Shown: piece by piece, positions 50,247-64,000 of the stretch
How positions within the stretch are numbered: position 1 is the stretch's first letter
Layout: each line of letters begins with the position of its first letter
Source: Yoonia vestfoldensis
Lineage (GTDB): Bacteria; Pseudomonadota; Alphaproteobacteria; Rhodobacterales; Rhodobacteraceae
DNA: 64,000 nt
Assembly (NCBI RefSeq): GCF_002158905.1
Contig: NZ_CP021431.1
Location: 496,001 to 560,000, forward strand
Direction: 5' to 3'
Translations under genes and position numbers: made by a program
Notes under the pieces: model-generated
The model's input: only the letters and a program-made list of their open reading frames with translations
The model's database searches: none
Told to the model about the DNA's origin: nothing

Positions 50247-50801
50247 ATGGCGCAAAATGCCACTATTTACAAAGTCGAGCTTTCGGTCGCGGATATGGAT
50301 CGTCACTATTACGAGACCCATAAACTGACGCTGGCCAAACATCCGTCAGAGACCGATGAACGGCTGATGGTCCGCATCATCGCCTTTGCGCTGAATGCCC
50401 ATGCGCAGCTGGAAATGACCAAGGGCCTGTCGACCGATGACGAACCCGACATCTGGCAGAAAAGCCTGAGCGGCGAGCTTGAACTCTGGGTGGCTTTGGG
50501 GCTGCCAAGCGAAAAGCTGTTGCGGCAATCCTGCGGCAAGGCTGCCAAGGTGGTGGTCTATCCCTATGGCGGCAGACCCGCCGAGATCTGGTGGGACAAG
50601 ATCAAGAACAGCACCACCCGTTTCGACAATTTGCAGATCGTCAATCTTCGGCAGGCCGACACCGATGCAATCGCGGCTTTGGCCAGCCGCGCGATGAAGT
50701 TGCAGATCAATATCCAGGATGGCGAGGTGATGATCAATCTTGATGATAGCAGCGTCTATATCTCGCCGCAGCCATGGAAAACGCTGGCCCCTGCCGCTTA
50801 G
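50247..50801 (+). CDS. yaeQ: YaeQ family protein
   Basis: 184 residues with the family start (NATIYKVELSVADMDRHYYETHKLTLAKHPSETDERLMVR), GELELWVALGLPSEKLLRQSCGKA, and WWDKIKNSTTRFDNLQI. YaeQ adopts a PD-(D/E)xK-related fold and has been linked to transcription effects in enterics; molecular activity is not settled. ATG 50247 chosen from the family N-terminus. It is 159 bases before tupB; I see no gene or clear riboswitch in that gap. Confidence 0.92.
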   Translation: MAQNATIYKVELSVADMDRHYYETHKLTLAKHPSETDERLMVRIIAFALNAHAQLEMTKGLSTDDEPDIWQKSLSGELELWVALGLPSEKLLRQSCGKAAKVVVYPYGGRPAEIWWDKIKNSTTRFDNLQIVNLRQADTDAIAALASRAMKLQINIQDGEVMINLDDSSVYISPQPWKTLAPAA

Positions 50802-50960: not shown

Positions 50961-51665
50961 ATGAGCGATATTGCAGATGGCTTTGCCACGGCTGCCCAGC
51001 TGGTTTTGTCGCTGGACGCTGAATTGATCGAGATTACGCTACGCTCGCTTCAGGTGACGCTCAGCGCGACCGCCATTGCCTCGATCATCGGGTTGCCGCT
51101 GGGGGCCTGGCTGGCGATCACGCGTTTCCCCGCACGGCGTTATGTGATCGCGCTGCTGAATGCGCTGATGGGGCTGCCCCCGGTCGTTGTCGGGCTGATC
51201 GTCTATATCTTGCTGTCGCGCTCTGGCCCTTTTGGCGTGCTGGGCCTTTTGTTCACGCCAACGGCGATGATCATCGCGCAGGTCATCATCATCACGCCCT
51301 TGGTCGCGTCGATTGCCCATCAGGCGATGCGCGAATTATGGGCGGATTATCATGATCTGCTGATCTCTCTCCATGCGTCGCGCAGACAGCGGATCGCCAC
51401 GCTGGTCTGGGACGGGCGGCGCACCTTGTTGACGGCGCAGCTGGCCGGTTTCGGGCGCGGCATCGGCGAGGTCGGGGCGATCATGATCGTCGGCGGCAAT
51501 ATCGACAATGCGACGCGGGTGCTGACCACGGCAATCTCGCTCGAGACAGGGCGCGGGCAATTCGCGCTGGCGCTGGCCTTGGGGTTCATCCTGATCGGGC
51601 TGGCCGTTGTGGTCAATCTTTGCATTCATGTCCTGTCACGGACGGAACAGGGCAGCCGATGGTAA
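50961..51665 (+). CDS. tupB: Tungstate ABC transporter permease
   Basis: 234 residues with about five to six transmembrane helices and the inner-membrane component loop (EAA-like region GFGRGIGEVGAIMIVGGNIDN). The GGNIDNATRVLTTAISLETGRGQF stretch is typical of TupB-type tungstate permeases and distinguishes it from ModB. A cytosolic-facing coupling helix contacts TupC. No tupA (binding protein) is found beside it, which is unusual. The overlap with tupC is 7 bases. Supplies W or Mo, and the formate dehydrogenase locus nearby needs such metal. Confidence 0.85.
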   Translation: MSDIADGFATAAQLVLSLDAELIEITLRSLQVTLSATAIASIIGLPLGAWLAITRFPARRYVIALLNALMGLPPVVVGLIVYILLSRSGPFGVLGLLFTPTAMIIAQVIIITPLVASIAHQAMRELWADYHDLLISLHASRRQRIATLVWDGRRTLLTAQLAGFGRGIGEVGAIMIVGGNIDNATRVLTTAISLETGRGQFALALALGFILIGLAVVVNLCIHVLSRTEQGSRW

Positions 51666-52381
51666 ACGATCACGATATCCTGCCGCTGCGCCTGCAAGAG
51701 ATCATGGTCAAGCGGCGTGGCAAACGCATTCTTGGGCCGGTGTCCTTGGTCTTGCAAGGCAAGGGGATCAGCGTGGTCGTCGGGCCAAATGGCAGCGGCA
51801 AGACCACATTGCTGCGCGCGATGCACGGGATCGACCGGATCTCGGAGGGGCGCAAAAGCTGGTCGATCAGCGATGCGCAGGCCCATGCGGCGCAATCTTT
51901 CGTCTTTCAAACCCCGATCATGATGCGGCGCAATGTGCGCGACAATATCGCCTATCCGCTGGTCTTGCGCGGCATGGCGCGCAGCGAGGCGCGCGCCGCC
52001 GCCGATATCCGGGCCGCGCGGGTCGGGCTGGGGGCCGCAGTTTTGCGTGCGGCGCGGGTGCTGTCAGGGGGCGAAAAGCAGAAACTCGCCTTGGCGCGCG
52101 CCTTGGTCACGGCCCCGCAAGTTCTGTTCCTGGACGAGCCTTGTGCCAATCTGGACGGCCATGCCACCCAGGAAATAGAGACGATCCTGCATGCCGCCAG
52201 TGCCGCTGGCACCAGGATCGTGATGTCCACCCATGATCTGGGCCAGGCCCGTCGCCTTGCCGATGAGGTGCTGTTCCTGCATGACGGCCATGTCGTCGAG
52301 ATGCTGCCCGCGGCGGCATTCTTTGCCGGGCCTGCATCGGCGCAGGCACTGGCCTTTCTCAAGGGTGATCTGGTTTTGTGA
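51659..52381 (+). CDS. tupC: Tungstate ABC transporter ATP-binding protein
   Basis: 240 residues, ABC ATPase. Walker A GPNGSGKTT, Q-loop SFVFQTPIMMRRNV, signature LSGGEKQKLALARAL, Walker B VLFLDEPCANLD, switch His in STHDLGQ. A molybdate transporter ATPase (ModC) would carry a C-terminal MOP domain of about 100 residues; none is present here, matching TupC. ATG 51659 overlaps tupB by 7 bases. Ends 74 bases before the stop of the convergent ferredoxin-like gene. Confidence 0.86.
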   Translation: MVNDHDILPLRLQEIMVKRRGKRILGPVSLVLQGKGISVVVGPNGSGKTTLLRAMHGIDRISEGRKSWSISDAQAHAAQSFVFQTPIMMRRNVRDNIAYPLVLRGMARSEARAAADIRAARVGLGAAVLRAARVLSGGEKQKLALARALVTAPQVLFLDEPCANLDGHATQEIETILHAASAAGTRIVMSTHDLGQARRLADEVLFLHDGHVVEMLPAAAFFAGPASAQALAFLKGDLVL

Positions 52382-52455
52382 CGCGGCTTCTCTGCCGCTT
52401 GGGCCTCGGAGCGCAGCCTTGGCCGCGCCCGCCGGAACCCTGCGCTGCGCGCTGA

Positions 52456-54408
52456 TCAGCTATCGGCCTTTTCATGCGGATCAAAGCCGGCCATCACGAC
52501 CTCGCGGGTGCGGCAATCGTCGCACATCGACAGCAGCCGGCGACGCTCTGCCCCGGTCTCACCGGCGAACATCCAATGATCTTCCAGCTTTTGCATGACC
52601 CGCTCGATGCTGGATTTGGTGCCGAATGGCTTGGCGCAGGATGTGCAGGCGAAAGGCTCTTCCTGTTTCAAGACGCGGCGCGGTGCGGCCCAGGCGGCAA
52701 GGTCGATTTGCGGGGTCAGCGACAAGGCATCTTCGGGGCAGGTCGCCACGCAGATGGAACATTGCACACAGGCGCTTTCGGTAAAGCGCAGCATCGGCAG
52801 ATCGGGATTGTCGGACAAGGCCCCCGCAGGGCAGGCCCCGACACAGGCAAGGCAAAGCGTGCAGGCATCGTGATCCAGCGTGACGGTGCCAAAAGGCGCG
52901 CCCTGTGGCAGCGCGATGAAATCGGTCGGCAGGGGGGCTGTCCGGTTCATTTCTTCCATCGCCAGCAGCAGCAAGCCACGTTTGTCATCCTGGGGCATAA
53001 AGCTGGACCGCATCGGGCGTGCCGTGGCCGCAGGCTGCCAAAGCGCAAGTTCCAGCGCATCAGGATCGTCGATTGCAAGCAAGGCGCAGGAAGCCGGATC
53101 ATGGCCGGTCTGCGTGCAGATGACCGCCATCAGATCCAGACTGTCCTGCAACCCGTCCAGCGGATGGGCGGGGCGTTCCTTGGCCAGCACGCGCAGGCCG
53201 CCCGCGCCATAGGCCAACGCTGCCGCCATGATCTCTGGCCCGATCTGCGAGGGTTCATTGACCTGCACCGGGATCACATGCGCGGGCAGACCCTTGCCGA
53301 ACCGCGCCATTGCGTCAATCAGGGCGGCGCCGTGATCGGCATCATGAAACAGCATGATCGGCGCATGTTTGCCGCCTGCTGTGAAATAGGCCGCAAGGCC
53401 TGCGCGCAGCCGGGCGGCGATGTTTTCGGTCACCGGCAGGGCATAGGCGGCGGCCCCTGTCGGGCAGGCCGCTGCGCATTGCCCGCAGCCCGCGCAGATA
53501 TTGGGATCAATCGCCACGGTGTCGCCATTGGACGTGATCGCCCCCGTCGGGCACAGGTTCAGACAGCGGGTGCAGCCGGTCAATGTATTGCGCGAATGGG
53601 CGCAAAGCTCGGCTGTGAAATTGATGTATTTCGGCTTGTCGAAGGTCCCGACCATCTGGCTGGCCTCGGTCACCAGTCTGGCCAGCGCCACCGGGTCACG
53701 CGGATCGGCCCGCAGATAGCCTGGACGGGTTTCATGGAACAAGGGTTGCCCGCCGGTCACGTCGATCACCAGATCACAGGCCGAGATCGCGCCATTGCGC
53801 GCCGTGTCGAATGTCAGCCGCGCGCGCGATGACGCATGCGGGGCGGCATAATCATCAACCGTCAGCTCGAACGCGCCCAGATGCCCGGTCGCATTGCGCA
53901 CCCGCCCTTGCAGCACCGGCCAGGTCGTTTGCGGGCGCGGCACGACATCGGCACCCGGCAGCAACAGCACGGTGATATCGAGCATGTCGGACAGGTTTTG
54001 CGCCAGATCCAGCGCTGCCTGATCGCGCCCGAGAATCAGGGTGATCCCGTTGCTTTCCAGACTGACGACATCAAAAGGAGTGGCGGCGATTTCGGCCATC
54101 GCAAGCAGGGCCGCCATTTTGGGCGTGGCATCTTGCCCCGCCTCGGACCAGCCTGCTGTTTCGCGGATATTGGCGAAATGCAGCGTCCCTTCATAGCCCA
54201 TATCCTCGGCCACTTCTGTAAACAGCGGGGCTTCTTGGGTGCAGGCCACGGTGATTTCGCCGAATGCGCCCAAGGCTTTGCGGAAATGATCAAGCTGGCT
54301 ACGACACAGGTGATTCGCGCCATCGCCCTGTCCCCCCAAGGCCTGGGCTGCGACTTTCATGCTGCCTTCGCAGCTGCAAATCAGGCGGGTTTTGTCGTGC
54401 TGGGGCAT
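52456..54408 (-). CDS. Large 4Fe-4S protein of the formate dehydrogenase locus
   Basis: 650 residues. Cysteine motifs in order: an N-terminal CSCEG; CAHSRNTLTGCTRCLNLCPTG; CAGCGQCAAACPTG; then CTLCLACVGACPAG and CVQCSICVATCPED near residues 530-580, giving about four [4Fe-4S] sites. A C-terminal pair CTSC...CDDC may bind zinc or another cluster. The N-terminal 220 residues resemble HdrA/ferredoxin-like partners but I cannot name the fold. Divergent from the fdh accessory operon. Likely an electron carrier, perhaps for formate oxidation or for metallocluster assembly. Confidence 0.75.
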   Translation of the reverse strand: MPQHDKTRLICSCEGSMKVAAQALGGQGDGANHLCRSQLDHFRKALGAFGEITVACTQEAPLFTEVAEDMGYEGTLHFANIRETAGWSEAGQDATPKMAALLAMAEIAATPFDVVSLESNGITLILGRDQAALDLAQNLSDMLDITVLLLPGADVVPRPQTTWPVLQGRVRNATGHLGAFELTVDDYAAPHASSRARLTFDTARNGAISACDLVIDVTGGQPLFHETRPGYLRADPRDPVALARLVTEASQMVGTFDKPKYINFTAELCAHSRNTLTGCTRCLNLCPTGAITSNGDTVAIDPNICAGCGQCAAACPTGAAAYALPVTENIAARLRAGLAAYFTAGGKHAPIMLFHDADHGAALIDAMARFGKGLPAHVIPVQVNEPSQIGPEIMAAALAYGAGGLRVLAKERPAHPLDGLQDSLDLMAVICTQTGHDPASCALLAIDDPDALELALWQPAATARPMRSSFMPQDDKRGLLLLAMEEMNRTAPLPTDFIALPQGAPFGTVTLDHDACTLCLACVGACPAGALSDNPDLPMLRFTESACVQCSICVATCPEDALSLTPQIDLAAWAAPRRVLKQEEPFACTSCAKPFGTKSSIERVMQKLEDHWMFAGETGAERRRLLSMCDDCRTREVVMAGFDPHEKADS

Positions 54409-54518
54409 TGGTGTCTCGCCTCTGGCTAGATATGGCTGGAACTTGACCGGTTCTGGCCGATATACGCGTCATTGATTGCAAAGCCTAGAGTCCGGCACGC
54501 GATAATCGGGGAGGCAAC

Positions 54519-55253
54519 ATGGACGACAGATCACAGACCCACGGCTTGGGGCACATTGCGTTGCCGCCGCCCTATACATTGCATGCCGGCACCGGGCCGG
54601 ATGTGCTGGAACAGGCAATCAGGCTTGCGCCGGAGCACGGGGCCGGCACCTTGGTGTGCCATGCCTCTGCCGGCGTGCTGGCATTTGCCGTGGTGCTGGA
54701 ACCGACGCAACCGCTGCAAGAGGCGCAGATGGCCTTTCCGCTGGGCATGGTCGCCGTGGCGGATGCGCTTGCGGCGCATTGTCCGCCCGAACGCGCGGTG
54801 CGGCTGCATTGGCCGGATGAAATCCGCTATGACAAGGCGCGGATCGGCGGCGGGCGCTTTGCCGTCGCCCCCGGAACCGGACCGCAGGATGTTCCCGATT
54901 GGATGGTGTTCGCGGCCGAGCTGATCTCGGAACGCGACCATCTGCCGGAACCGGGCCAGTTTCCCGACTCGACATCGTTGAAAGAAGAAGCCTTTGATCC
55001 GCACGAGGATATCATCGCCACTTTCGCCAGCTACATGATGCTCTATTTCGACCGCTGGCTGCATGACGGTCTGGATGCGGTGACCAACCGCTATCTGATG
55101 CGCATCGACCCGCCGCTTTTGCGGGGGGTGCGGCGGATCGAGGGCGACCGCCTGGTCGAGATCACGCCCGCGGGCGGCGGCAAAAGATCGGACCCATTGC
55201 TGCAATCCTTCAACGCCTCTGGCTGGCGCGATGCCAAGGGGCCGAAATTGTGA
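54519..55253 (+). CDS. Degenerate biotin/lipoate-ligase-like protein
   Basis: 244 residues. The N-terminal part resembles the biotin protein ligase fold: WPDEIRYDKARIGGGRF corresponds to the ligase WPND...GRKxxGIL strand pair. The adenylate loop GRGRxGR is absent (the region reads TLVCHASAGVLAFAVVLEP) and the catalytic Lys of GRKxxGI appears replaced by Arg, so biotin or lipoate ligation is unlikely. A C-terminal extension (170-244) is family-specific. GGGGAGG 5 bases before ATG 54519. First gene of the fdh accessory operon; overlaps the next gene by GTGA. Confidence 0.7.
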   Translation: MDDRSQTHGLGHIALPPPYTLHAGTGPDVLEQAIRLAPEHGAGTLVCHASAGVLAFAVVLEPTQPLQEAQMAFPLGMVAVADALAAHCPPERAVRLHWPDEIRYDKARIGGGRFAVAPGTGPQDVPDWMVFAAELISERDHLPEPGQFPDSTSLKEEAFDPHEDIIATFASYMMLYFDRWLHDGLDAVTNRYLMRIDPPLLRGVRRIEGDRLVEITPAGGGKRSDPLLQSFNASGWRDAKGPKL

Positions 55254-55810
55254 TCCGTCTGCCCCGGACCATCCAGCTGGATGCCTCGGACAAGGTGGTG
55301 TTCAGCAATGCCGCCCAGCCCGGTGAATGGGCCGTGCCGGGCACGTTTTTGTTCTGGGGGCGTGCCCCCGATGATCTGACCCGCAAAGAGGCGATTGCCT
55401 TTCGGTCCGGGTTTCTGGGGGTGGACAGTTTTGGCCATGCGACCTTGGTCACGGTGCAAGAGGCCCGGCCCGAGGAACGCGAAGCCATGGTGCTGACATT
55501 GGCCCAGCAATTGGTGACCCATCTGGGCGCCCCATCGCTAGAGGCCGCCCGCCCCGCCGCCGAAGAAGAGGTCGCATTGGCCGAAAGCCTGTGCCGCGCG
55601 CATCCGCTGAACACGCTGATCGCGCTGCACCGCAAACATGATGCCGGCGATATCCGCGAACAATTCCGCACGCTGAAACCGCGTGACGAGACGGCTTTTT
55701 CGGGGTCGCATTTGCAAGGCCATGATCGCGCCTTTCAATTCTTCGAGGAAACCGAAGACAGCCTGCCCGAAGATCATGTCGATCTATTTGCCCTGAGAGG
55801 AAAAGTCTGA
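55250..55810 (+). CDS. Uncharacterised fdh-operon protein (presumed DUF6505)
   Basis: 186 residues, soluble, no signal peptide or transmembrane helix. Features seen: LPRTIQLDASDKVVF, GEWAVPGTFLFWG, KEAIAFRSGFLGVDSFG, then a helical half ending EEVALAESLCRAHP. I recall the name DUF6505 for this neighbour in Rhodobacterales formate dehydrogenase loci; not checked. The start is GTG 55250, coupled to the previous stop (GTGA). Ends in a TGATG junction with the next gene. Function unknown. Confidence 0.72.
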   Translation: MIRLPRTIQLDASDKVVFSNAAQPGEWAVPGTFLFWGRAPDDLTRKEAIAFRSGFLGVDSFGHATLVTVQEARPEEREAMVLTLAQQLVTHLGAPSLEAARPAAEEEVALAESLCRAHPLNTLIALHRKHDAGDIREQFRTLKPRDETAFSGSHLQGHDRAFQFFEETEDSLPEDHVDLFALRGKV

Positions 55811-56799
55811 TGCCTGAATTCTGGGTCGCCTCGGGCCATCACCTGACACGGCTGGATGACGCGGGCCGCATGATTGTCACCGACGAGCTGATCGTCGCAT
55901 GGCTTGCGCGTCCCGAGGTGCTGCCCCCGCCCGAGGCTTGCGCCGCCGAACGCACCTTGCACAAGCGCCTGATGGACCAGCCGCGCGCAAAAGTGTCGGA
56001 TATGGAACTGATCGCGCTGCAAGACCCCGATGCGCGCGAAAACTGGCGCTTTCTTTTGACATTGCGTGACCGGCTGATCGCCGCAGGCACGGTCGAAGAG
56101 GGCTATGCGCAGATCGTGCGCGACGGGGTCACCCTGCCGGTCGTCTTCATGTCGCAGCTGGTGCAGCTGATCCTGCGCAACGCGCTGGATGGGTGCAGTG
56201 ACCCGCAGGTCCTGCGCGCGGCGGAATGTTTCTTTCGCCCGCAGCGCAGCCATATCCAGAACGATACCCTGTTTCTGGCCGATGAAGAATTGGTGCAGCT
56301 GCTGGAACAAGAGATGCACAGCTCGCCCCTGACGGCGATGCTCTCGGGGGGGATCGACGGGCTGGATGTGCTGGGGGACGGCAATGACTGGACCTATTGG
56401 TCGCGCTCTGACGCCCATACGATGGTGCTGAATTTCGGCGGTGATGCCGCGGCGCGCGCGGGCATGGCCACGGCGATTGCCGCCTATCTGCGTCATATGC
56501 TGGGACTTGACTGCAATGTGACGGCGCAGGCCTCGGCCGATAACACCGACCTGCGCTGGTTCGTGGGGCTGGATCAGGCAGGCACGGCAATCGGCAACGC
56601 GCTGTGGAACAAGCAGCCGCTGCCTGCTACACTTGTGGGGTTGTTCCGGCTGGACATCGCCGATCATGCCCGCGTGACGCCTGATCTGCGCGGAGAACCG
56701 ATCTGGCTGTTCCTGGGCTTGGGGGCCGATGGCGCGGTGCGGATCAAGCCGCAGAACCTGCTGACCGGGCTGCCGCTGGCCGCGCCCGTGCTGAACTGA
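55810..56799 (+). CDS. Uncharacterised fdh-operon protein (presumed DUF6352)
   Basis: 329 residues, soluble. N-terminus FWVASGHHLTRLDDAGRMIVTDE, a helical middle (LRAAECFFRPQRSHIQNDTLFLADEELV) and a C-terminal alpha/beta part rich in Asp/Gly (DGLDVLGDGNDWTYWSRSDAH). No catalytic signature I know. The conserved paired HH near the start is a possible metal site, only a guess. The name DUF6352 is recalled, not verified. Coupled to the previous gene (TGATG at 55808-55812) and 10 bases before the DUF3305 gene. Confidence 0.72.
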   Translation: MPEFWVASGHHLTRLDDAGRMIVTDELIVAWLARPEVLPPPEACAAERTLHKRLMDQPRAKVSDMELIALQDPDARENWRFLLTLRDRLIAAGTVEEGYAQIVRDGVTLPVVFMSQLVQLILRNALDGCSDPQVLRAAECFFRPQRSHIQNDTLFLADEELVQLLEQEMHSSPLTAMLSGGIDGLDVLGDGNDWTYWSRSDAHTMVLNFGGDAAARAGMATAIAAYLRHMLGLDCNVTAQASADNTDLRWFVGLDQAGTAIGNALWNKQPLPATLVGLFRLDIADHARVTPDLRGEPIWLFLGLGADGAVRIKPQNLLTGLPLAAPVLN

Positions 56800-56809
56800 A
56801 AGGATAGCC

Positions 56810-57340
56810 ATGCCGATCAAGACCCTGCGCATTTCGGTTCTCGCGATCAGACGGCCTGCGGTCACGAAATGGGGTGCTGGTGAATTGCGGCCCTGTTCGG
56901 TCTTGCCACAGGAACCTGACGCGGCGCCCCATACGCTGCTTTACGCCGAAAACGGGGTCGAGACCTGGTATCTGGGCGGCCGCGATCTGGCGCTCTATTC
57001 TGGTGACACGCTGCACCATCAGGACAATCTGGTCTCGGGGCGTCCGGCGCTCTGGGTGGCGTTGCGCGGGCAGGACCCCAAAACGGCCGAGATCGTGAAT
57101 GTCACCGCCGACCCTTACGAAGGCGAAGGCTATGCATCCGATCTGGACCTATTCGTCGAGCCGGTGCCGATGCCTGCGGTGATAGAAGCGCAGATCGCGG
57201 AATTCGTGGCGAAATACCATGTCGATATGCCCTTCAAGAAACGCAAACGCCATGTGATCGACCCCAATGCCCCACCGGCGCGCGCGCCGCGGGTTTTGCA
57301 AGATGCCGATAAATGGGCGCATCGCCCCGCCAAGAGGTAA
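56810..57340 (+). CDS. DUF3305 protein
   Basis: 176 residues. Start MPIKTLRISVLAIRRPAVTKWGAGELRP is characteristic of DUF3305, followed by YAENGVETWYLGGRDLALY and ALWVALRG, and a Lys/Arg-rich tail (KKRKRH). DUF3305 and DUF3306 genes are companions of formate dehydrogenase operons across proteobacteria; their activity is not defined. Spacing to the DUF3306 gene is 3 bases. Confidence 0.85.
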   Translation: MPIKTLRISVLAIRRPAVTKWGAGELRPCSVLPQEPDAAPHTLLYAENGVETWYLGGRDLALYSGDTLHHQDNLVSGRPALWVALRGQDPKTAEIVNVTADPYEGEGYASDLDLFVEPVPMPAVIEAQIAEFVAKYHVDMPFKKRKRHVIDPNAPPARAPRVLQDADKWAHRPAKR

Positions 57341-57343
57341 GCC

Positions 57344-57997
57344 ATGCCCAAACCCACCGATCAGGGCGAATCTTTTCTGGGCCGCTGGTCGCGCAACAAG
57401 CGCGCGCAACCCGCCGCGCCCGAACCCGTGGCAGAGCCTGATGCCAGTGCCGATATCGCGGCCCCGGACCAAGAATCACTGACCGAAGAAGAAATCGCCG
57501 CATTGCCGGATGTCGATGATCTGACCCCGCAGAGCGATATTCGCGTCTTTTTGCAAAAAGGCGTGCCGCAGGTCCTGCGCAATGCGGCTTTGCGCCGCAA
57601 ATGGATGCTGGTTCCCGGCATCAGGGATCACAATGATCCGGCTGTGGATTACGCTTGGGACTGGAACACACCAGGCGGCGTGCCGGGCGACGGGGCTGCA
57701 CCCTCGCCGGAACGGGCGGCACAAATGCTGCGCGATCTTTTCGCGCCTCGCCGCGATGCAGAAACCACGCAGACCGCTGAAACAGGGGCGGATGCGGCCG
57801 ATCCGGCCATCATTCCGGCCCAGGATATTGCACCGCAGCAAACCGATTTGGCGCTGACCCAGCCGCAGGCCCCACAGGATAAGGCCGAGGCCGAAGGCAG
57901 CGCAGCGTCGCAAGATCAGCAGCAGCAAGCGGCAGGTCCGGACAGCGACGCGGTCCCCCCCGCACGCCGGCGTCATGGCGGGGCTTTGCCCGGCTAG
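57344..57997 (+). CDS. DUF3306 protein
   Basis: 217 residues. N-terminal FLGRWSRNKRA is the DUF3306 hallmark, then LTEEEIAALPDVDDLTPQSDIRVFLQKGVPQVLRNAALRRKWML and the acidic-aromatic DYAWDWNTPGG. The second half (130-217) is low complexity, rich in Ala, Gln, Asp, so mostly disordered. Probably a partner of the enzyme or chaperone during assembly. Followed by a 129-base gap before the torD-like gene, which holds a GTGGTA-N9-TACCAC dyad. Confidence 0.85.
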   Translation: MPKPTDQGESFLGRWSRNKRAQPAAPEPVAEPDASADIAAPDQESLTEEEIAALPDVDDLTPQSDIRVFLQKGVPQVLRNAALRRKWMLVPGIRDHNDPAVDYAWDWNTPGGVPGDGAAPSPERAAQMLRDLFAPRRDAETTQTAETGADAADPAIIPAQDIAPQQTDLALTQPQAPQDKAEAEGSAASQDQQQQAAGPDSDAVPPARRRHGGALPG

Positions 57998-58126
57998 GTG
58001 GTTGCGCCTGTTTGTGATAAATTGTGTGCGAACATATGCAAAGATTCTGGACAGCCACCACTTGCCTGCGTAAAGCTATTGCATGTGGTATCATTTTCTT
58101 ACCACTCGGGAGTGAGACTAGGTAAC

Positions 58127-58732
58127 ATGACGGATAGCCAGCCCATCAACGGGCGAGCCAACGATCCTCTAGAGGCGTCGCGAAGCGATCAATATCGTTT
58201 CATGGCGCGCATGTTGTCGAGCGCGCCTGACCAGGCCTTGCTGGATCATGTATCCCGCCTGCAAGGCGATGATGGCCCGCTGGGCCTTGCTTATGGCGCT
58301 TTGGCGCAGGCGGCCAAGCGGTGTGACGCGGCCCGCGTCGAACGCGAATTTTTCGAATTGTTCATCGGGGTCGGGCGCGGCGAATTGCTGCCCTATGCCA
58401 GCTTTTACCAGACCGGATTTCTGAACGAACGCCCCTTGGCGATTCTGCGCGATGATCTGTCCCGTCTGGGTGTGGCGCGCGCCGCCGGCCGACACGAGCC
58501 CGAAGATCACATCGCTTTGCTGATGGATGTCATGGCCGACATGATTTCGGGCGAGATCGCGGCAAGCGATGATATCCAGCGCGCTTTCTTCAATCGTCAT
58601 ATCGCGCCTTGGGCGGGGCAATTCTTTGACGATCTAGCGATTGCACCAAGCGCAGATTTTTACCGACCGCTGGCCGAAATTGGCCGGTTATTGACCGATA
58701 TCGAGGCACGGGCATTCGCGCTCGCCGCCTGA
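58127..58732 (+). CDS. TorD-family molecular chaperone for formate dehydrogenase
   Basis: 201 residues, all-helical. TorD/DmsD family features: FFELFIGVGRGELLPYASFYQTGFL and EPEDHIALLMDVMADMI, then FFNRHIAPWAGQFFDDL. Such chaperones bind the Tat leader of a molybdoenzyme and hold it until cofactor insertion, in the cytosol. The substrate is presumably the alpha subunit encoded next. ATG 58127 begins the conserved domain; the upstream frame runs into the intergenic gap and is not used. Confidence 0.9.
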   Translation: MTDSQPINGRANDPLEASRSDQYRFMARMLSSAPDQALLDHVSRLQGDDGPLGLAYGALAQAAKRCDAARVEREFFELFIGVGRGELLPYASFYQTGFLNERPLAILRDDLSRLGVARAAGRHEPEDHIALLMDVMADMISGEIAASDDIQRAFFNRHIAPWAGQFFDDLAIAPSADFYRPLAEIGRLLTDIEARAFALAA

Positions 58733-58794
58733 CAGACCAACCTTTACCCCGGTAAGCCAGCCAGCTTGCCGTAGCCGCCACCAGGGAGATCCAG

Positions 58795-59007
58795 ATGACG
58801 AAAGACAAACACGATCCAATGAGCCGCCGTGCGTTTTTTGGCGTCGCGGCGACAGGCGCGTCGGCCGCAGCGCTGACAATGGGCGGCGCGCGCCCTGTCA
58901 TGGCCCAGCAAACCGGGGATGAGCGCACAAAGGCGCGGTACCGCGAGACAGAACATGTCGCCGCGTTTTACCGCACAAATCGTTATTATGATCGGGGAGA
59001 AAACTGA
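58795..59007 (+). CDS. Small Tat-leader protein of the fdh region
   Basis: 70 residues. A twin-arginine leader (SRRAFFGVAATGASAAALTMGG) ends near PVMAQ, then 30 residues ending YRETEHVAAFYRTNRYYDRGEN. It matches the known small 'formate dehydrogenase region Tat target' proteins, whose role (perhaps an extra subunit or maturation aid) is unresolved. Its stop overlaps the fdhA start in TGATG, so the two are made together. Confidence 0.88.
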   Translation: MTKDKHDPMSRRAFFGVAATGASAAALTMGGARPVMAQQTGDERTKARYRETEHVAAFYRTNRYYDRGEN

Positions 59008-61976
59008 TGCTGGTCAAACGCAGATCACGCGAGGCGGTAGCGACAGGCCGCTTGTCGCAGCTGGCCGCAGGCGTCGCCGCCAAACCAATCGACCGGCGCA
59101 GCTTCTTGCGCGCCTCGGGGATGAGCATCGGTGGCCTTGCGGTCATCGCCACGGTCGGATCCGGGCTGACACAGCGCGTCGAGGCCGCCGGTTTCACCGA
59201 TCCGGCGCAGCCGATCGAGATCAAAAAGAACATGTGCACCCATTGTTCGGTTGGCTGCTCGGTCGTCGCCGAAGTGCAAAACGGCGTTTGGGTTGGGCAA
59301 GAGCCTGCCTATAACAGCCCGATCAACCGCGGCACGCATTGCGCCAAGGGCGCATCGGTGCGCGAAGTCGTGCATGGTGATCGTCGCCTGAAATATCCGA
59401 TGAAAAAAGTCGGTGGCGAATGGCAGCGGATCAGCTGGGATCAGGCGCTGGATGAAATCGCCGCCAAGATGGGCGAGATCCGCGAAACGTCCGGTGCGGA
59501 TTCGGTCTATCTGCTGGGTTCGGCCAAGTTCAGTAACGAAGGGTCTTACCTCTTCCGCAAGCTGGCGGCATTCTGGGGCACCAATAACGTCGACCACCAG
59601 GCGCGGATCTGCCACTCGACCACTGTGGCCGGTGTTGCGAATACCTGGGGCTATGGTGCGATGACCAATAGCTACAACGACATCCGCAATTCCAAGACCG
59701 TGATCTTCATGGGCTCGAACGCGGCCGAGGCGCATCCCGTCTCGATGCAGCACATCCTGACCGGCAAGGAAACCCAGCGCGCCAATGTGATCGTGCTGGA
59801 CCCGCGCTTTACCCGCACGGCGGCCCATGCCACCGAATACATCCGTTTCCGTCCCGGCACCGATATCGCCGTGATCAACGGGATGCTTTACCACATCTTT
59901 GAAAACGGCTGGGAAGATACCGAATATCTGGCACAGCGCGTCTATGGCATGGACCAGGTGCGCGAAGTGGTGAAAGCCTATACGCCCGAAGTCGTCGAAA
60001 AGATCGCAGGCGTTGATGGCGACACGCTCAAGCGCGCTGCCGAGAAATTTGCAAAGGAACGCCCCTCGACCTTTATCTGGTGCATGGGTGGCACGCAGCA
60101 TACTGTCGGCACGGCCAATGTCCGCGCTTACAACATTCTGCTGCTGGCGACGGGCAATGTCGGCGGCCAGGGCAATGGCGCCAATATTTTCCGGGGTCAC
60201 TGCAACGTGCAGGGTGCGACGGACTTTGGTCTCGATGTCGGCAACCTGCCTTGCTACTACGGCCTTGGCGCCGGTGCATGGCAGCATTGGTCGCGCGTCT
60301 GGGACGTGCCTTACAACTACTTCGTCAACCGTTTTGACAATGTGCCGGCCAAAGGCGGACGCGATGCGCGGACAGCCGAGGAAAACATGACCATTCCGGG
60401 CATCACCTCGACCCGTTGGTTCGATGCGGTCACGATGGACAGCGATGACGTTGACCAGAAAGACAACATCAAGGCGATGCTGGTCTTTGGTCACGGCGGT
60501 AACACTGTTCCCCGGATGCAGGATGCCCGTCGCGGCATGGATGCGCTGGACCTGCTGGTCGTCGCCGACCCGCATCCAACCACCTTTGCCGCGTTGCATT
60601 CGCGCACCGACAACACCTATCTGCTGCCGATCTGCACGCAGTTTGAATGTTCCGGCTCGCGCACCGCATCCAACCGGTCGGTGCAATGGGGCGAAAAAGT
60701 TGTCGAACCGATTTTCGAATCCGACAATGATTACGCGGTCATGTATGGGCTGTCGCAGCGGCTTGGCTTTGCTGACGAGATGTTCAAGAACTTCGAACTG
60801 GTCGAAGGCAAGTTCGGCCTGGAGCCGACGCCGGAATCCATCCTGCGCGAAATCAACCGTGGTGGCTGGTCTGTCGGTTATACCGGCCAAAGCCCAGAGC
60901 GGCTGAAAGCCCATATGGCCAACCAGCAGCATTTCGATCTGGTCACGCTGAAGGCGCTGCCCGACGCACCCGCCGAGGTTGCTGGCGATTTCTACGGTCT
61001 GCCTTGGCCATGCTGGGGCACGCCCGAGTTCCGGCATCCGGGCAGCCACATCCTCTACAACACCAATATCCCTGTGATGGAAGGTGGCGGCGCGTTCCGT
61101 CCACGTTTCGGGCTGGAACGTGACGGCGAGACATTGCTGGCCGAAGGCAGCTGGAACCCCGGTTCCGAGATCCAGGACGGCTATCCCCAGTTCACGATGG
61201 GCATGCTGAAAGAGCTGGGCTGGGATACCGATCTGACCGCACGCGAACGCGCCGTGATCGAACGGATCGGCGGCGGTGATGAAGAAAAGATCAACGGCGT
61301 CAGCTGGTCGCTCGACCTGTCGGGCGGCATCCAGCGGGTGGCGATCGAACATGGCTGCGTGCCTTACGGCAACGGCAAGGCCCGGGCGGTTGCCTGGAAC
61401 CTGCCCGACCCGATCCCTGTGCACCGCGAACCGATCTATTCGGCACGCCCTGAACTGGTGGCGGAATATCCGACCAATGACGACCGTCGTCAGCAGCGGA
61501 TGCCGAACATCGGCAAAGTGGTGCAGCAAAGCGCGGTGGACCGGAACCTTGCAGCGGACTTCCCGATCATTCTGACCTCTGGTCGCTTGGTGGAATATGA
61601 AGGCGGCGGCGAGGAAACACGGTCCAACCCATGGCTGGCCGAATTGCAGCAGGACATGTTCGTCGAGATCAACCCCGCAGACGCAGCGGCCCGCGGCATC
61701 GTCGATGGCGATTGGGTCTGGGTCTACGGCCCCGAGAACGAGTCCAAGGCACGGGTCAAGGCGATGGTGACCGAGCGTGTGAATTCTGGTCTGGCCTTCA
61801 TGCCATTCCACTTCGCAGGCTGGTTCCAGGGCGAAGATCAGCGCGGCAATTACCCCGCTGGGACTGACCCGATCGTTCTGGGCGAATCCGTCAACGTTAT
61901 CACCAGCTACGGCTATGACCCGGTGACCGGCATGCATGAAGGCAAAGTCACGCTTTGCCAAATCGCAGCGGCATAA
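59007..61976 (+). CDS. fdhA: Formate dehydrogenase alpha subunit (catalytic, Mo/W-bis-MGD)
   Basis: Oxidises formate to CO2 in the periplasm. 989 residues. Tat leader with DRRSFLRAS near residues 29-37. The N-terminal [4Fe-4S] site uses Cys77, Cys80, Cys84 and Cys112. The metal ligand position, selenocysteine in some relatives, is Cys202 followed by His203 (ARICHSTTVAG), so no Sec machinery is required. MGD-binding segments and a C-terminal dinucleotide-binding domain (FMPFHFAGWFQGE) complete it. No in-frame TGA. Enzymes of this kind use Mo or W; nearby tupBC favours W use but does not prove it. Confidence 0.95.
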   Translation: MLVKRRSREAVATGRLSQLAAGVAAKPIDRRSFLRASGMSIGGLAVIATVGSGLTQRVEAAGFTDPAQPIEIKKNMCTHCSVGCSVVAEVQNGVWVGQEPAYNSPINRGTHCAKGASVREVVHGDRRLKYPMKKVGGEWQRISWDQALDEIAAKMGEIRETSGADSVYLLGSAKFSNEGSYLFRKLAAFWGTNNVDHQARICHSTTVAGVANTWGYGAMTNSYNDIRNSKTVIFMGSNAAEAHPVSMQHILTGKETQRANVIVLDPRFTRTAAHATEYIRFRPGTDIAVINGMLYHIFENGWEDTEYLAQRVYGMDQVREVVKAYTPEVVEKIAGVDGDTLKRAAEKFAKERPSTFIWCMGGTQHTVGTANVRAYNILLLATGNVGGQGNGANIFRGHCNVQGATDFGLDVGNLPCYYGLGAGAWQHWSRVWDVPYNYFVNRFDNVPAKGGRDARTAEENMTIPGITSTRWFDAVTMDSDDVDQKDNIKAMLVFGHGGNTVPRMQDARRGMDALDLLVVADPHPTTFAALHSRTDNTYLLPICTQFECSGSRTASNRSVQWGEKVVEPIFESDNDYAVMYGLSQRLGFADEMFKNFELVEGKFGLEPTPESILREINRGGWSVGYTGQSPERLKAHMANQQHFDLVTLKALPDAPAEVAGDFYGLPWPCWGTPEFRHPGSHILYNTNIPVMEGGGAFRPRFGLERDGETLLAEGSWNPGSEIQDGYPQFTMGMLKELGWDTDLTARERAVIERIGGGDEEKINGVSWSLDLSGGIQRVAIEHGCVPYGNGKARAVAWNLPDPIPVHREPIYSARPELVAEYPTNDDRRQQRMPNIGKVVQQSAVDRNLAADFPIILTSGRLVEYEGGGEETRSNPWLAELQQDMFVEINPADAAARGIVDGDWVWVYGPENESKARVKAMVTERVNSGLAFMPFHFAGWFQGEDQRGNYPAGTDPIVLGESVNVITSYGYDPVTGMHEGKVTLCQIAAA

Positions 61977-61991
61977 GGGAGGATCAAAAAA

Positions 61992-62588
61992 ATGGCACGC
62001 ATGAAATTCCTTTGTGACGCGGATCGCTGCATTGAATGCAACGCTTGTGTTACGGCCTGCAAAAACGAGCATGAAGTCCCGTGGGGCATCAACCGCCGCC
62101 GGGTCGTGACGCTGAATGATGGTCTGCCGGGTGAACGGTCGGTCTCGATGGCCTGTATGCATTGCACCGACGCGCCTTGTGCTGCGGTCTGTCCGGTGGA
62201 TTGCTTTTACACCACCGATGATGCGGTCGTGTTGCACAACAAAGACACCTGTATCGGTTGTGGCTATTGCAGCTATGCGTGCCCCTTTGGCGCGCCGCAA
62301 TATCCGCAAACCGCCAATTTCGGCACGCGCGGCAAGATGGACAAATGCACCTATTGTTCGGGTGGTCCAGAGCCGGACATGTCGCAGGCCGAATATGTGA
62401 AATATGGCGCAAACCGTCTTGCCGAAGGCAAACTGCCGCTTTGTGCGGAAATGTGTTCAACCAAGGCGTTGTTGGCGGGGGATGGCGACATCATCGCTGA
62501 CATCTACCGCGAACGGGTTGTCACACGAGGCTATGGATCGGGTGCCTGGGGTTGGCGCACGGCTTATGGCGAAACGGTAGCGGTTTAA
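61992..62588 (+). CDS. fdhB: Formate dehydrogenase iron-sulfur (beta) subunit
   Basis: 198 residues. Four [4Fe-4S] cluster motifs: CIECNACVTAC, CMHCTDAPCAAVC, CIGCGYCSYAC and the last formed with CTYC and CAEMC. It relays electrons from fdhA to the membrane subunit. It is shorter than the beta subunits with a C-terminal transmembrane helix, resembling the Fdh3B class. A GGGAGG is found 9-14 bases before the ATG. Confidence 0.95.
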   Translation: MARMKFLCDADRCIECNACVTACKNEHEVPWGINRRRVVTLNDGLPGERSVSMACMHCTDAPCAAVCPVDCFYTTDDAVVLHNKDTCIGCGYCSYACPFGAPQYPQTANFGTRGKMDKCTYCSGGPEPDMSQAEYVKYGANRLAEGKLPLCAEMCSTKALLAGDGDIIADIYRERVVTRGYGSGAWGWRTAYGETVAV

Positions 62589-62601
62589 GGAGGATATGAA
62601 G

Positions 62602-63585
62602 ATGCGATACGTCTCTCAATTTATGATCGCTCTCGCGGTTCTCGTGTTTGTCGGGCAGGCCTCTGCGCAGGTTAACCCGACGCAAAGCGCCGTCACCGAA
62701 GACTCCATGTTCGAGGCATTGGGCAGTAATTCCAACGCTGTGGCGGGGCGCGTGTCGATCCCGGATACCAGCGCCGGGAACCTGATCAAGCCCGATAACA
62801 AGGCATGGGCTGCTTTGCAGGATGGCACGATCCAGACGCTTTCCGTTGTCGCTGTTGTGGGGATGGTGGGTCTGCTGGCGCTGTTCTACATGGTCCGTGG
62901 CCGTATCCAGGTGGATTCCGGCATGTCCGGTCTCAAGATCCTGCGTTTTGGCGCGATCGACCGTTTTGCTCATTGGACGCTGGCGGCGACCTTTATCATC
63001 CTGGCGATCAGCGGGCTGAACTTGATCATCGGCAATGCCGTGATCCTGCCGCTCATCGGGGAAAATGCGTTTGGGGCTTTGTCGGCTTTTGGCAAGATCG
63101 CGCACAACTACCTGGCCTGGCCGTTCATGCTGGCGCTGGCGTTGATCTTCGTGCTTTGGGTGATCGACAACATCCCCGACAAGGTTGACCTGGAATGGAT
63201 CAAGCAGGGTGGTGGCCTTCTCAAGAAAGGCGTGCACCCGCCTGCCAAAAAGTTCAACGCTGGTCAGAAAGTCATTTTCTGGTCCGTGATCCTTGGTGGC
63301 GCTGGTCTGTCCTTCACAGGTGTCATGCTGCTGTTCCCCGGCTTTGCTGGCGCACCGGCTGATTGGCAGCTCTATCAGACGATCCATGCCCTGATCGCGG
63401 CGGCTCTGTCGGCCATCATCATCGCGCATATCTATATCGGCTCTGTCGGGATGGAAGGCGCGTTCGATGCGATGGGGTCCGGCGAGGTTGACGTCAACTG
63501 GGCCAAGGAACACCATGGTCTGTGGGTCGAGCAAGAAAAAGCAAAGCCCGCCAAGGACGGCGCCTTGTCGACACCTGCCGAGTAA
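62602..63585 (+). CDS. fdhC: Formate dehydrogenase gamma subunit (cytochrome b)
   Basis: Passes electrons to the quinone pool through two haems. About 327 residues. A signal-peptide-like start (FMIALAVLVFVGQASAQ) is followed by a linker, then a transmembrane segment near 80-100 and four helices of the Ni/Fe-hydrogenase-type cytochrome b fold, with candidate haem histidines in FAHWTLAA, IAHNYLAW and ALIAAALSAIIIAHIYIG. ATG 62602 is preferred, 8 bases from AAGGAGG; an ATG at 62596 has spacing of only 2. Last of the fdhABC cluster. Confidence 0.93.
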   Translation: MRYVSQFMIALAVLVFVGQASAQVNPTQSAVTEDSMFEALGSNSNAVAGRVSIPDTSAGNLIKPDNKAWAALQDGTIQTLSVVAVVGMVGLLALFYMVRGRIQVDSGMSGLKILRFGAIDRFAHWTLAATFIILAISGLNLIIGNAVILPLIGENAFGALSAFGKIAHNYLAWPFMLALALIFVLWVIDNIPDKVDLEWIKQGGGLLKKGVHPPAKKFNAGQKVIFWSVILGGAGLSFTGVMLLFPGFAGAPADWQLYQTIHALIAAALSAIIIAHIYIGSVGMEGAFDAMGSGEVDVNWAKEHHGLWVEQEKAKPAKDGALSTPAE

Positions 63586-63609
63586 TCGGGCGTTCGACCA
63601 TTAACAGAT

Positions 63610-63643
63610 ACGACCCAGCCTTGATCCAGAGGCTGGGTCGTTT
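63610..63643 (+). terminator. Rho-independent-like terminator after fdhC
   Basis: ACGACCCAGCC (63610-63620) pairs perfectly with GGCTGGGTCGT (63631-63641) around a ten-base loop, followed by TT. A short U-run only, so moderate strength. It separates fdhABC from the next gene. Confidence 0.75.
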
Positions 63644-63667
63644 GCCCTGAAATACGTTGTGAGAAAT

Positions 63668-64000
63668 ATGTCCCAAGGCGACCGCGATCTCGATGATGAC
63701 ATATCCGGGGTTCTGGTAGAGATGCTTTTGCCGGACGGCAAACCCTTGGGCACGTCGGGGCGGATTGCCGGGCTGAACCAATCGGGCGGCCGGGTCAGCC
63801 TGTCGATCCAGATCAGCCCCGATGAAGCCACGGCCTTTGCGCCGCTGCGCGATAGGCTCGAAGCGCGCTTGCGGGCTTTGGAGGGGGTCACATCGGCCTT
63901 TGTCGTGCTGACCGCCGAACGGGCAGCACCACCGAAACTGGTTGAAAAGACGCCATCAAAGACGGACCCTTTGGAAAATGTCGGTCATGTGATCGCCGTG
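63668..64000 (+). CDS. Mrp/ApbC-type Fe-S carrier (partial, N-terminal part)
   Basis: 111 residues visible; the gene continues past the right edge. The stretch GRIAGLNQSGGRVSLSIQISPDEA followed by LEGVTSAFVVLTAE matches the N-terminal domain of Mrp/NBP35 P-loop proteins, and the last residues GHVIAV lead into where the Walker A (SGKGGVGKS) would begin. The usual PDP motif of the domain is altered (MLLPDGKPLGTSG). Such proteins deliver [4Fe-4S] clusters, which fdhA and fdhB need. The assignment depends on sequence outside the window. Confidence 0.7.
   Translation, partial: MSQGDRDLDDDISGVLVEMLLPDGKPLGTSGRIAGLNQSGGRVSLSIQISPDEATAFAPLRDRLEARLRALEGVTSAFVVLTAERAAPPKLVEKTPSKTDPLENVGHVIAV

Follow-up and report, generated by a model that had tools for sequence, protein, structure and literature searches.

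Several described systems bear on the locus analyzed here. In the accessible part of their 2015 study of TorD/DmsD-fdhGHI operons, Bay et al. report DUF3305 and DUF3306 in 60% of the operons linked to DmsD-fdhGHI (PMC4464133). For periplasmic formate dehydrogenases (FDHs), the portion of a second source available to us states that fdhE is systematically associated with these enzymes and describes FdhE as an iron protein of the rubredoxin type that carries CX2C motifs (PMC10609526). SoFdhAB of Shewanella oneidensis (structure 9VAP) is presented, in the excerpted text of a review, as a fully oxygen-tolerant Cys-tungsten enzyme with H653, V666, Y776 and T927 as its tunnel and O2 residues (PMC13397495). 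Here we analyzed a 64,000-nucleotide window of the Yoonia vestfoldensis genome (3.99 Mb, 3 contigs; C1:496001-560000, contig NZ_CP021431.1), in which the genes of an FDH3-type formate dehydrogenase lie behind a tightly spaced block of five further genes. Judged from sequence comparisons, this block and its neighbours as a whole probably constitute a dedicated biogenesis system for FDH3 that is organized in two layers.

The enzyme itself, which converts formate and carbon dioxide into one another, is predicted to be a membrane-bound, Cys-type FdhABC of the FDH3 type that is exported by twin-arginine translocation (Tat). FdhB (61992..62588; this and all following genes on the plus strand unless stated otherwise) scored 338.7 bits against the FDH3_beta model NF038355 (cut-off 240), which places it in the FDH3 class. 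FdhA (59007..61976; PF00384) carries the Tat motif RRSFL at residue 30 and the active-site Cys202 within ARICHS. A cysteine rather than a selenocysteine occupies the active site in each of the 106 long FdhA sequences from the collected loci, the window's included (pattern AR.CH[SG]), and the Tat motif RR.F is present in 105 of them. The cytochrome b subunit FdhC (62596..63585) scored 141.5 bits against TIGR01583 (cut-off 115.85) and is a relative of 1kqf_C. The best solved match of FdhA was chain A of 9VAP (residues 23-988, 1236 bits, with the second-best structure at 305 bits), and FdhB aligned with 9vap_B at 333.6 bits. Manual inspection of the alignment between FdhA and 9VAP showed H653, V666 and Y776 to be conserved and T927 to be replaced by serine; the HREPxY motif, which contains Y776, was found in 101 of the 106 FdhA sequences. 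Because this best solved relative is a Cys-tungsten enzyme, tungsten is likely to occupy the FdhA active site, an analogy with which the tup-like genes nearby are consistent. No chain of 9VAP matched the small twin-arginine protein encoded upstream of fdhA. In six loci (L079, L082, L084, L111, L112 and L117), small lipoprotein-like genes (60-112 aa) lie between those of FdhB and FdhC. An open frame of 1094 aa antisense to fdhA-fdhB (59025-62309, minus strand) was interpreted as a shadow frame caused by the GC-rich gene on the other strand.

The distribution of the pair DUF3305 (56810..57340; PF11749, 107 bits) and DUF3306 (57344..57997; PF11748, 52.9 bits; acidic, net charge -15) follows that of the enzyme closely. 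We surveyed a class sample of 240 genomes and a phylum sample of 269, which share 18 genomes and comprise 491 together. FDH3_beta was found above cut-off in 34 of the 240 class genomes. DUF3305 and DUF3306 occurred in the same 37 class genomes, which included all 34 with FDH3 and only 3 of the 206 others. In the phylum sample, the 36 genomes with DUF3305 were the same 36 that carry FDH3_beta. Pooled over the 491 genomes, DUF3305 was present in 65/65 genomes with FDH3 and in 3/426 without; it occurred in none of 14 control genomes, E. coli among them. In two of the three extra genomes (G071 and G127), FdhA runs off a short contig (L121 and L115, respectively). The sequence-only reading of this DNA had tied the block to the adjacent fdhA and had named genes found mostly without fdhA as the outcome that would count against it; the survey came out in favour of the FDH3 link.

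Relatedness is partly controlled in this comparison, because both and neither are found side by side among relatives: in each of ten class families (f16, f35, f51, f67, f70, f75, f93, f105, f107 and f128), one genome has both DUF3305 and FDH3_beta and another has neither, and the window's own family in the phylum sample is split into seven of 14 genomes with both and seven with neither. DUF3305 adjoins DUF3306 in 32/32 class loci, 14/15 phylum loci and 76/80 loci of named genomes, the last being the best 80 by similarity from a scan that yielded at least 568 DUF6352 relatives, a selection biased to close relatives. Collectively, these data identify DUF3305-DUF3306 as a nearly inseparable core that goes almost one to one with FDH3. 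Since the core pair is carried almost only with FDH3 in the sampled bacteria, the block is probably a private assembly kit for this enzyme. Together with the polyferredoxin FER650, TorD and the small Tat protein described below, the pair forms a core layer that appears to go with FDH3 and to do without FdhE.

A second, auxiliary layer consists of a BPL-like protein, DUF6505, DUF6352, often Mrp and sometimes DUF6494; it is largely alphaproteobacterial, and its genes may be missing or relocated. In the window, it is represented by the BPL-like protein (54519..55253; BPL_LplA_LipB_2, PF16917, 194.5 bits, cut-off 27), DUF6505 (55250..55810; PF20115, 201.7 bits), DUF6352 (55810..56799; PF19879, 145.1 bits; KPQNL motif at the C-terminus) and an Mrp/ApbC-type Fe-S carrier (63659..64000), which is cut by the window end and runs to window-equivalent position 64759; the whole gene (L007:160-1260) gave 329.7 bits with PF10609. 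Open reading frame and family searches placed all genes where the sequence-only reading had put them, and the overlaps or spacings of 3-10 bases that it described were measured within the five-gene block as -4, -1, +10 and +3 bases, that is, overlaps of 4 and 1 bases and gaps of 10 and 3. Its description of the five proteins as unknowns stands in so far as their families are without known function; all five nevertheless belong to named Pfam families, and the BPL-like protein has a solved relative, 3bfm. Its expectation that the five are made as a set is borne out by the near-inseparable DUF3305-DUF3306 pair but not by the BPL-like protein, DUF6505 and DUF6352, which are absent or displaced in some FDH3 genomes.

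Within the class sample, DUF6352 was found in 31 of the 240 genomes, namely 28 of the 34 with FDH3 (missing from 6) plus G007, G071 and G127. DUF6505 was above cut-off in 24/240, that is, in 21 of the 34 (missing from 13) plus G119 (a weak match with one stop), G127 and G228; two further matches below cut-off were excluded. PF16917 matched 156/240 genomes, apparently because the family also catches ordinary biotin ligases; a hand-picked set of strong BPL-like matches comprised 25 genomes, 22 of them with FDH3. Coordinates place DUF6352 close or contig-adjacent to fdh in 16 of the 28 FDH3 genomes that have it. In eight it is clearly away from fdh, by at least 26 kb and mostly by far more (G028, G051, G105, G128, G135, G159, G233 and G236), and in three it lies on a separate short contig among housekeeping genes (G087, G200 and G226); G064 was undecided. 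Because the unlinked DUF6352 genes (8/28) still co-occur with FDH3, a shared neighbourhood alone is insufficient to account for the pairing.

Two close relatives of the window, G022 and G154, have no DUF6352 anywhere in the genome and carry DUF6494-Mrp-BPL-DUF6505 beside FER650. In close relatives that lack DUF6352, a c-type cytochrome-like protein (CGRCH, no Pfam match) is encoded between FER650 and DUF6494 (L095:11798-12571 and relatives). Mrp adjoins BPL-DUF6505 in some relatives. Among the seven loci fetched from outside the class, L227 contains BPL, DUF6505 and Mrp as well, and the layer is thus mostly, not only, alphaproteobacterial. The other six (L224-L226 and L228-L230) contain DUF3305, DUF3306, FER650, TorD, Tat and Fdh genes and lack all three of BPL, DUF6505 and DUF6352; two of them have Mrp.

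The BPL-like protein aligned with 3bfm_A at 111 bits and with BirA only at an E value of 0.84. At the position of the lysine of the KWPND motif, which we take to be the active-site lysine of biotin and lipoate ligases, the window protein has the histidine of HWPDE, as judged by alignment with 6jhu; this position is not conserved in the family alignment (A3). A role as a biotin- or lipoate-type protein modifier was considered and is unlikely, because the ligase lysine is absent. The models predicted for DUF3305 and DUF6352 had pLDDT (predicted local distance difference test) values of 90.2 and 88.9. In a sequence search of the PDB, the best E values were 0.032 for DUF6352, 0.15 for DUF3305 and 0.78 for DUF6505, and a profile-profile comparison of 15 neighbourhood families revealed no homology among them (best probability 7.1%).

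The gene order is well conserved in relatives. We based locus counts on the 53 of the 80 named loci that extend at least 5 kb upstream and at least 9 kb downstream. The exact order BPL-DUF6505-DUF6352-DUF3305-DUF3306-TorD-Tat-FdhA-FdhB-FdhC is found in 46/53, with the FER650 gene directly upstream in the same 46. FER650, DUF6505, DUF3305, DUF3306, TorD and FdhABC are present in all 53, BPL in 52, Tat in 50 and Mrp in 26; genes of cofactor synthesis are also seen, with MoeA-type in 34, MobB in 26, FdhD in 16 and MobA in 15. The nearest named relative among the matches listed is a Yoonia metagenome-assembled genome, whose DUF6352 is 95% identical. Beyond Rhodobacterales, the module occurs in records of Methylobacterium, Bosea, Bradyrhizobium and Sinorhizobium, and the core extends to other classes. 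On a Sinorhizobium meliloti plasmid that was typed as conjugative, the kit is accompanied by an ATP-binding cassette (ABC) uptake operon, a helix-turn-helix (HTH) regulator, DUF6494, molybdopterin-binding proteins, MobA and FdhD; among plasmid records, DUF3305 relatives were found on 87 and DUF6352 relatives on 10. On a Salipiger plasmid (L239), the FDH3 module lies beside a formate dehydrogenase of the fdhF type that has an NAD(P)H-dependent subunit, so that two FDH systems are adjacent.

The remaining members of the core layer flank the block. FER650, a 650-residue polyferredoxin with Fer4 matches, is encoded on the minus strand (52456..54408), divergently to the operon. It contains two 2[4Fe-4S] domains, which resemble those of FwdF, HdrA and HycF, and a C-terminal CxxC...CxxC pair (C588/C591 and C629/C632). 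These four cysteines are invariant in 24/24 aligned sequences, and the pattern was found in 112 of 113 long sequences and, by eye, in the last one. Among the five alignments compared (A2-A6), that of FER650 has the highest mean column identity (63%). Its C-terminal third matches HycF (7z0s_F); a resemblance of its N-terminus to that of HdrA was considered but not supported by comparison. The TorD-family chaperone scored 102.7 bits against PF02613 (gathering score 22.2), which assigns it to the TorD/NarJ family. Its frame is open from GTG 57998, and the likely start is ATG 58127, giving 201 aa (58127..58732); support for this start is moderate, as 29 of the 126 TorD frames in the loci measure 198-206 aa and most others are open upstream. 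The small Tat protein encoded just before fdhA (58795..59007), of the kind found in formate dehydrogenase regions, falls below the TIGR02811 cut-off (46.3 versus 48.45 bits) but holds the same place in the gene order of relatives.

By a crude hydropathy scan (19-residue windows, usual line 1.6), the five proteins, FER650 and TorD showed no convincing export signal or membrane span, with maxima of 0.32-1.95 as compared to 2.51 for FdhC. The BPL-like protein reached its maximum of 1.95 at residue 42, above the line, as did 27/108 BPL and 56/128 FER650 family members. Since no convincing signal or span was seen, action of these proteins in the cytoplasm, before export, is the likelier reading.

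Several links to cofactor supply were found. DUF3305 aligns with the MobA-DUF3305 model NF011058 over model positions 221-367, scoring 52.9 bits; the whole-model cut-off is 820, and the DUF3305 part alone is present. MobA directly adjoins DUF3305 in 5/32 class loci, and FdhD is present in the host genome. FdhE (PF04216) was absent genome-wide from all 19 FDH3 genomes searched, the window's own included, and was recovered in the E. coli control. This absence is notable because of the systematic association of fdhE with periplasmic FDHs cited above. Upstream of FER650, the window encodes a TupB-like ABC permease, tentatively for tungstate uptake (50961..51665), and a TupC-like ABC ATPase (51620..52381; start uncertain, the longest frame opening at TTG 51620). 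The ATPase scored 77.8 bits with ABC_tran and 299 bits with a profile from FDH-linked relatives, which includes this sequence. The name tupBC given in the sequence-only reading is tentative: the permease passes NF038017 (257.9 bits, cut-off 100) but falls short of the TupB equivalog NF041773 (166.1 versus 320). It may work like a tungstate/molybdate permease. No binding-protein gene lies beside this tupBC; the single tupA-like gene of the genome is found at a distance of ~255 kb, next to a tupBC and a regulator of its own. That locus (L237; C1, ~802985-806267) holds a complete tupA-tupBC set with an HTH-PBP regulator.

From the gene identities, order and co-occurrence observed directly, and from the absence of FdhE in the genomes searched, we infer the following route. 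Apo-FdhA would be held in the cytoplasm by TorD. The bis-guanine-dinucleotide cofactor would be made by MobA, sulfurated by FdhD and handed over with the help of DUF3305 and DUF3306, while the electrons or Fe-S clusters needed for loading might come from FER650 and Mrp. The trio of BPL-like protein, DUF6505 and DUF6352 could assist or check the loading step, and the folded FdhA-FdhB pair would then be exported through Tat. A more specific version is possible but doubtful: FDH3 might follow an FdhE-independent route in which DUF3305 and DUF3306 pass the tungsten bis-molybdopterin guanine dinucleotide from MobA/FdhD to TorD-held FdhA, FER650 replaces FdhE by means of its rubredoxin-like CxxC...CxxC pair, and the BPL-like protein has turned into a cofactor- or nucleotide-binding chaperone. 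The replacement of FdhE is suggested by the CxxC...CxxC pair of FER650, given the rubredoxin-type nature and CX2C motifs of FdhE.

A number of observations weigh against a dedicated biogenesis system. G125, the third of the extra genomes and a genuine exception, has DUF3305-DUF3306-MobA-FdhD-FER650 without FDH3_beta at 98% completeness. At this locus (L094), the core and FER650 adjoin genes of DNA polymerase III alpha and of the impB/mucB type, with no FDH genes; it looks like a remnant, or like a core that serves something else. In G007, an assembly of 810 contigs that is 93% complete, DUF6352 is present but DUF3305 is not, nor is FDH3_beta above its cut-off. Pairwise distances correlate moderately with those of FdhA (r from 0.34 to 0.68, DUF3305 highest), and those of DUF6352 in unlinked genomes hardly do (r = 0.11, 28 pairs), both figures standing without a control comparison. 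The DUF3305 and DUF6352 models gave no clear match to a solved fold in the PDB, and MobA adjoins DUF3305 in none of the 80 named and 15 phylum loci. Finally, fdhD/fdhE were almost always detected with this type of TorD according to the accessible part of PMC4464133, in conflict with the 0/19 for FdhE; the two results may not be comparable, because the 2015 study treats FdhD/E jointly.

Other explanations of the block fit these data less well. FER650 and its neighbours could be redox partners that link FDH3 to cytoplasmic electron pools, for example in CO2 reduction, instead of maturation factors. Such a function would suit the FwdF-, HdrA- and HycF-like domains of FER650 and its high alignment identity, but FdhA bears a Tat motif and FER650 lacks a clear signal, no match to a cofactor family, Fe-S or other, was obtained for DUF3305, DUF3306, DUF6505 and DUF6352, and a quinone link is already offered by FdhC; we consider this explanation unlikely. 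It is less probable still that the genes have unrelated functions and owe their proximity to chance or co-regulation. The trio can indeed part from fdh, and several genomes then show DUF6352 surrounded by genes such as aat, accC and nrdJ; however, FDH3 is present in 28/31 carriers of DUF6352 and 21/24 of DUF6505, linked or not, and within each of ten families DUF3305 and FDH3 are present or absent jointly. Very little probability likewise attaches to a role of the proteins in sensing tungsten or formate and controlling fdh expression. Near some of the named loci, an HTH-PBP regulator (6/53) and tup-like genes (9-13/53) are found, yet this separate regulator family is itself at hand for that role, and none of the five proteins has a DNA-binding family match. 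We therefore retain assembly of FDH3 as the probable function of the block.

Further genes border the locus. Directly after Mrp, ~0.8 kb past the window end, lies a gene whose WD40-repeat product ends in a CxxCH cytochrome c domain (L007:1316-2707). It is conserved in 47/53 named loci, CxxCH occurs in 52/52 sequences of 400-470 aa, and the protein is likely to be a periplasmic partner of FDH3. A YaeQ-family gene (50247-50801) lies directly upstream of tupBC; the frame of 478 aa from 49365 is an extended one.

Comparison with known systems places the locus as follows. SoFdhAB is matched over nearly the full length of FdhA and by FdhB, with three of the four tunnel and O2 residues kept, and the word 'accessory' is absent from the available text of its review (PMC13397495). 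The operons of Bay et al. contain the same core genes, DUF3305, DUF3306, fdh tat and fer4, around TorD or DmsD; in the part of that report at hand, there is no tie to the FDH3 class, no one-to-one co-occurrence and no mention of DUF6352 or DUF6505, and DUF3305/3306 are called putative membrane proteins, whereas our hydropathy scan found no span (PMC4464133). The FdhD/FdhE maturation of E. coli FDH-N and FDH-O likewise uses cytoplasmic factors for a Tat-exported FDH, with FdhD shared by our host genome (PMC10609526, in part). It differs in that FdhE is absent from 19/19 FDH3 genomes, which have TorD and the DUF families in its place. FDH1 is a cytoplasmic, NAD-linked type of FDH. MeFDH1 of Methylorubrum extorquens resembles our system in having dedicated late cofactor steps (MoeA1, MobB, MobA and FdhD) for a tungsten FDH, but these serve FDH1, and neither 'DUF' nor 'lipoate' occurs in the accessible text (PMC13197769). 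FdhM of the Campylobacter jejuni FdhABC is a TorD homologue that serves a periplasmic FDH, with no DUF3305 set mentioned in the available portion of its source (PMC10609526). In a search by name of one literature collection, no paper mentioned DUF6352, DUF6505 or DUF6494, and DUF3305 or DUF3306 appeared in PMC4464133 and in one paper whose title points to an unrelated subject.

Taken together, the association of the core genes is partly in print, as far as the available text goes (PMC4464133). Added here are the one-to-one tie to FDH3, the division into two layers, some of whose members co-occur with the enzyme even when unlinked, the absence of FdhE, and the relationship to the class of SoFdhAB. 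For MeFDH1, another tungsten FDH, maturation of the alpha-subunit limits production in E. coli, according to the excerpt of a report (PMC13396061). With a core pair that goes almost one to one with FDH3 and genes that are found together on a plasmid typed as conjugative, the locus offers a concrete candidate for a missing helper set and assigns testable roles to five orphan families.

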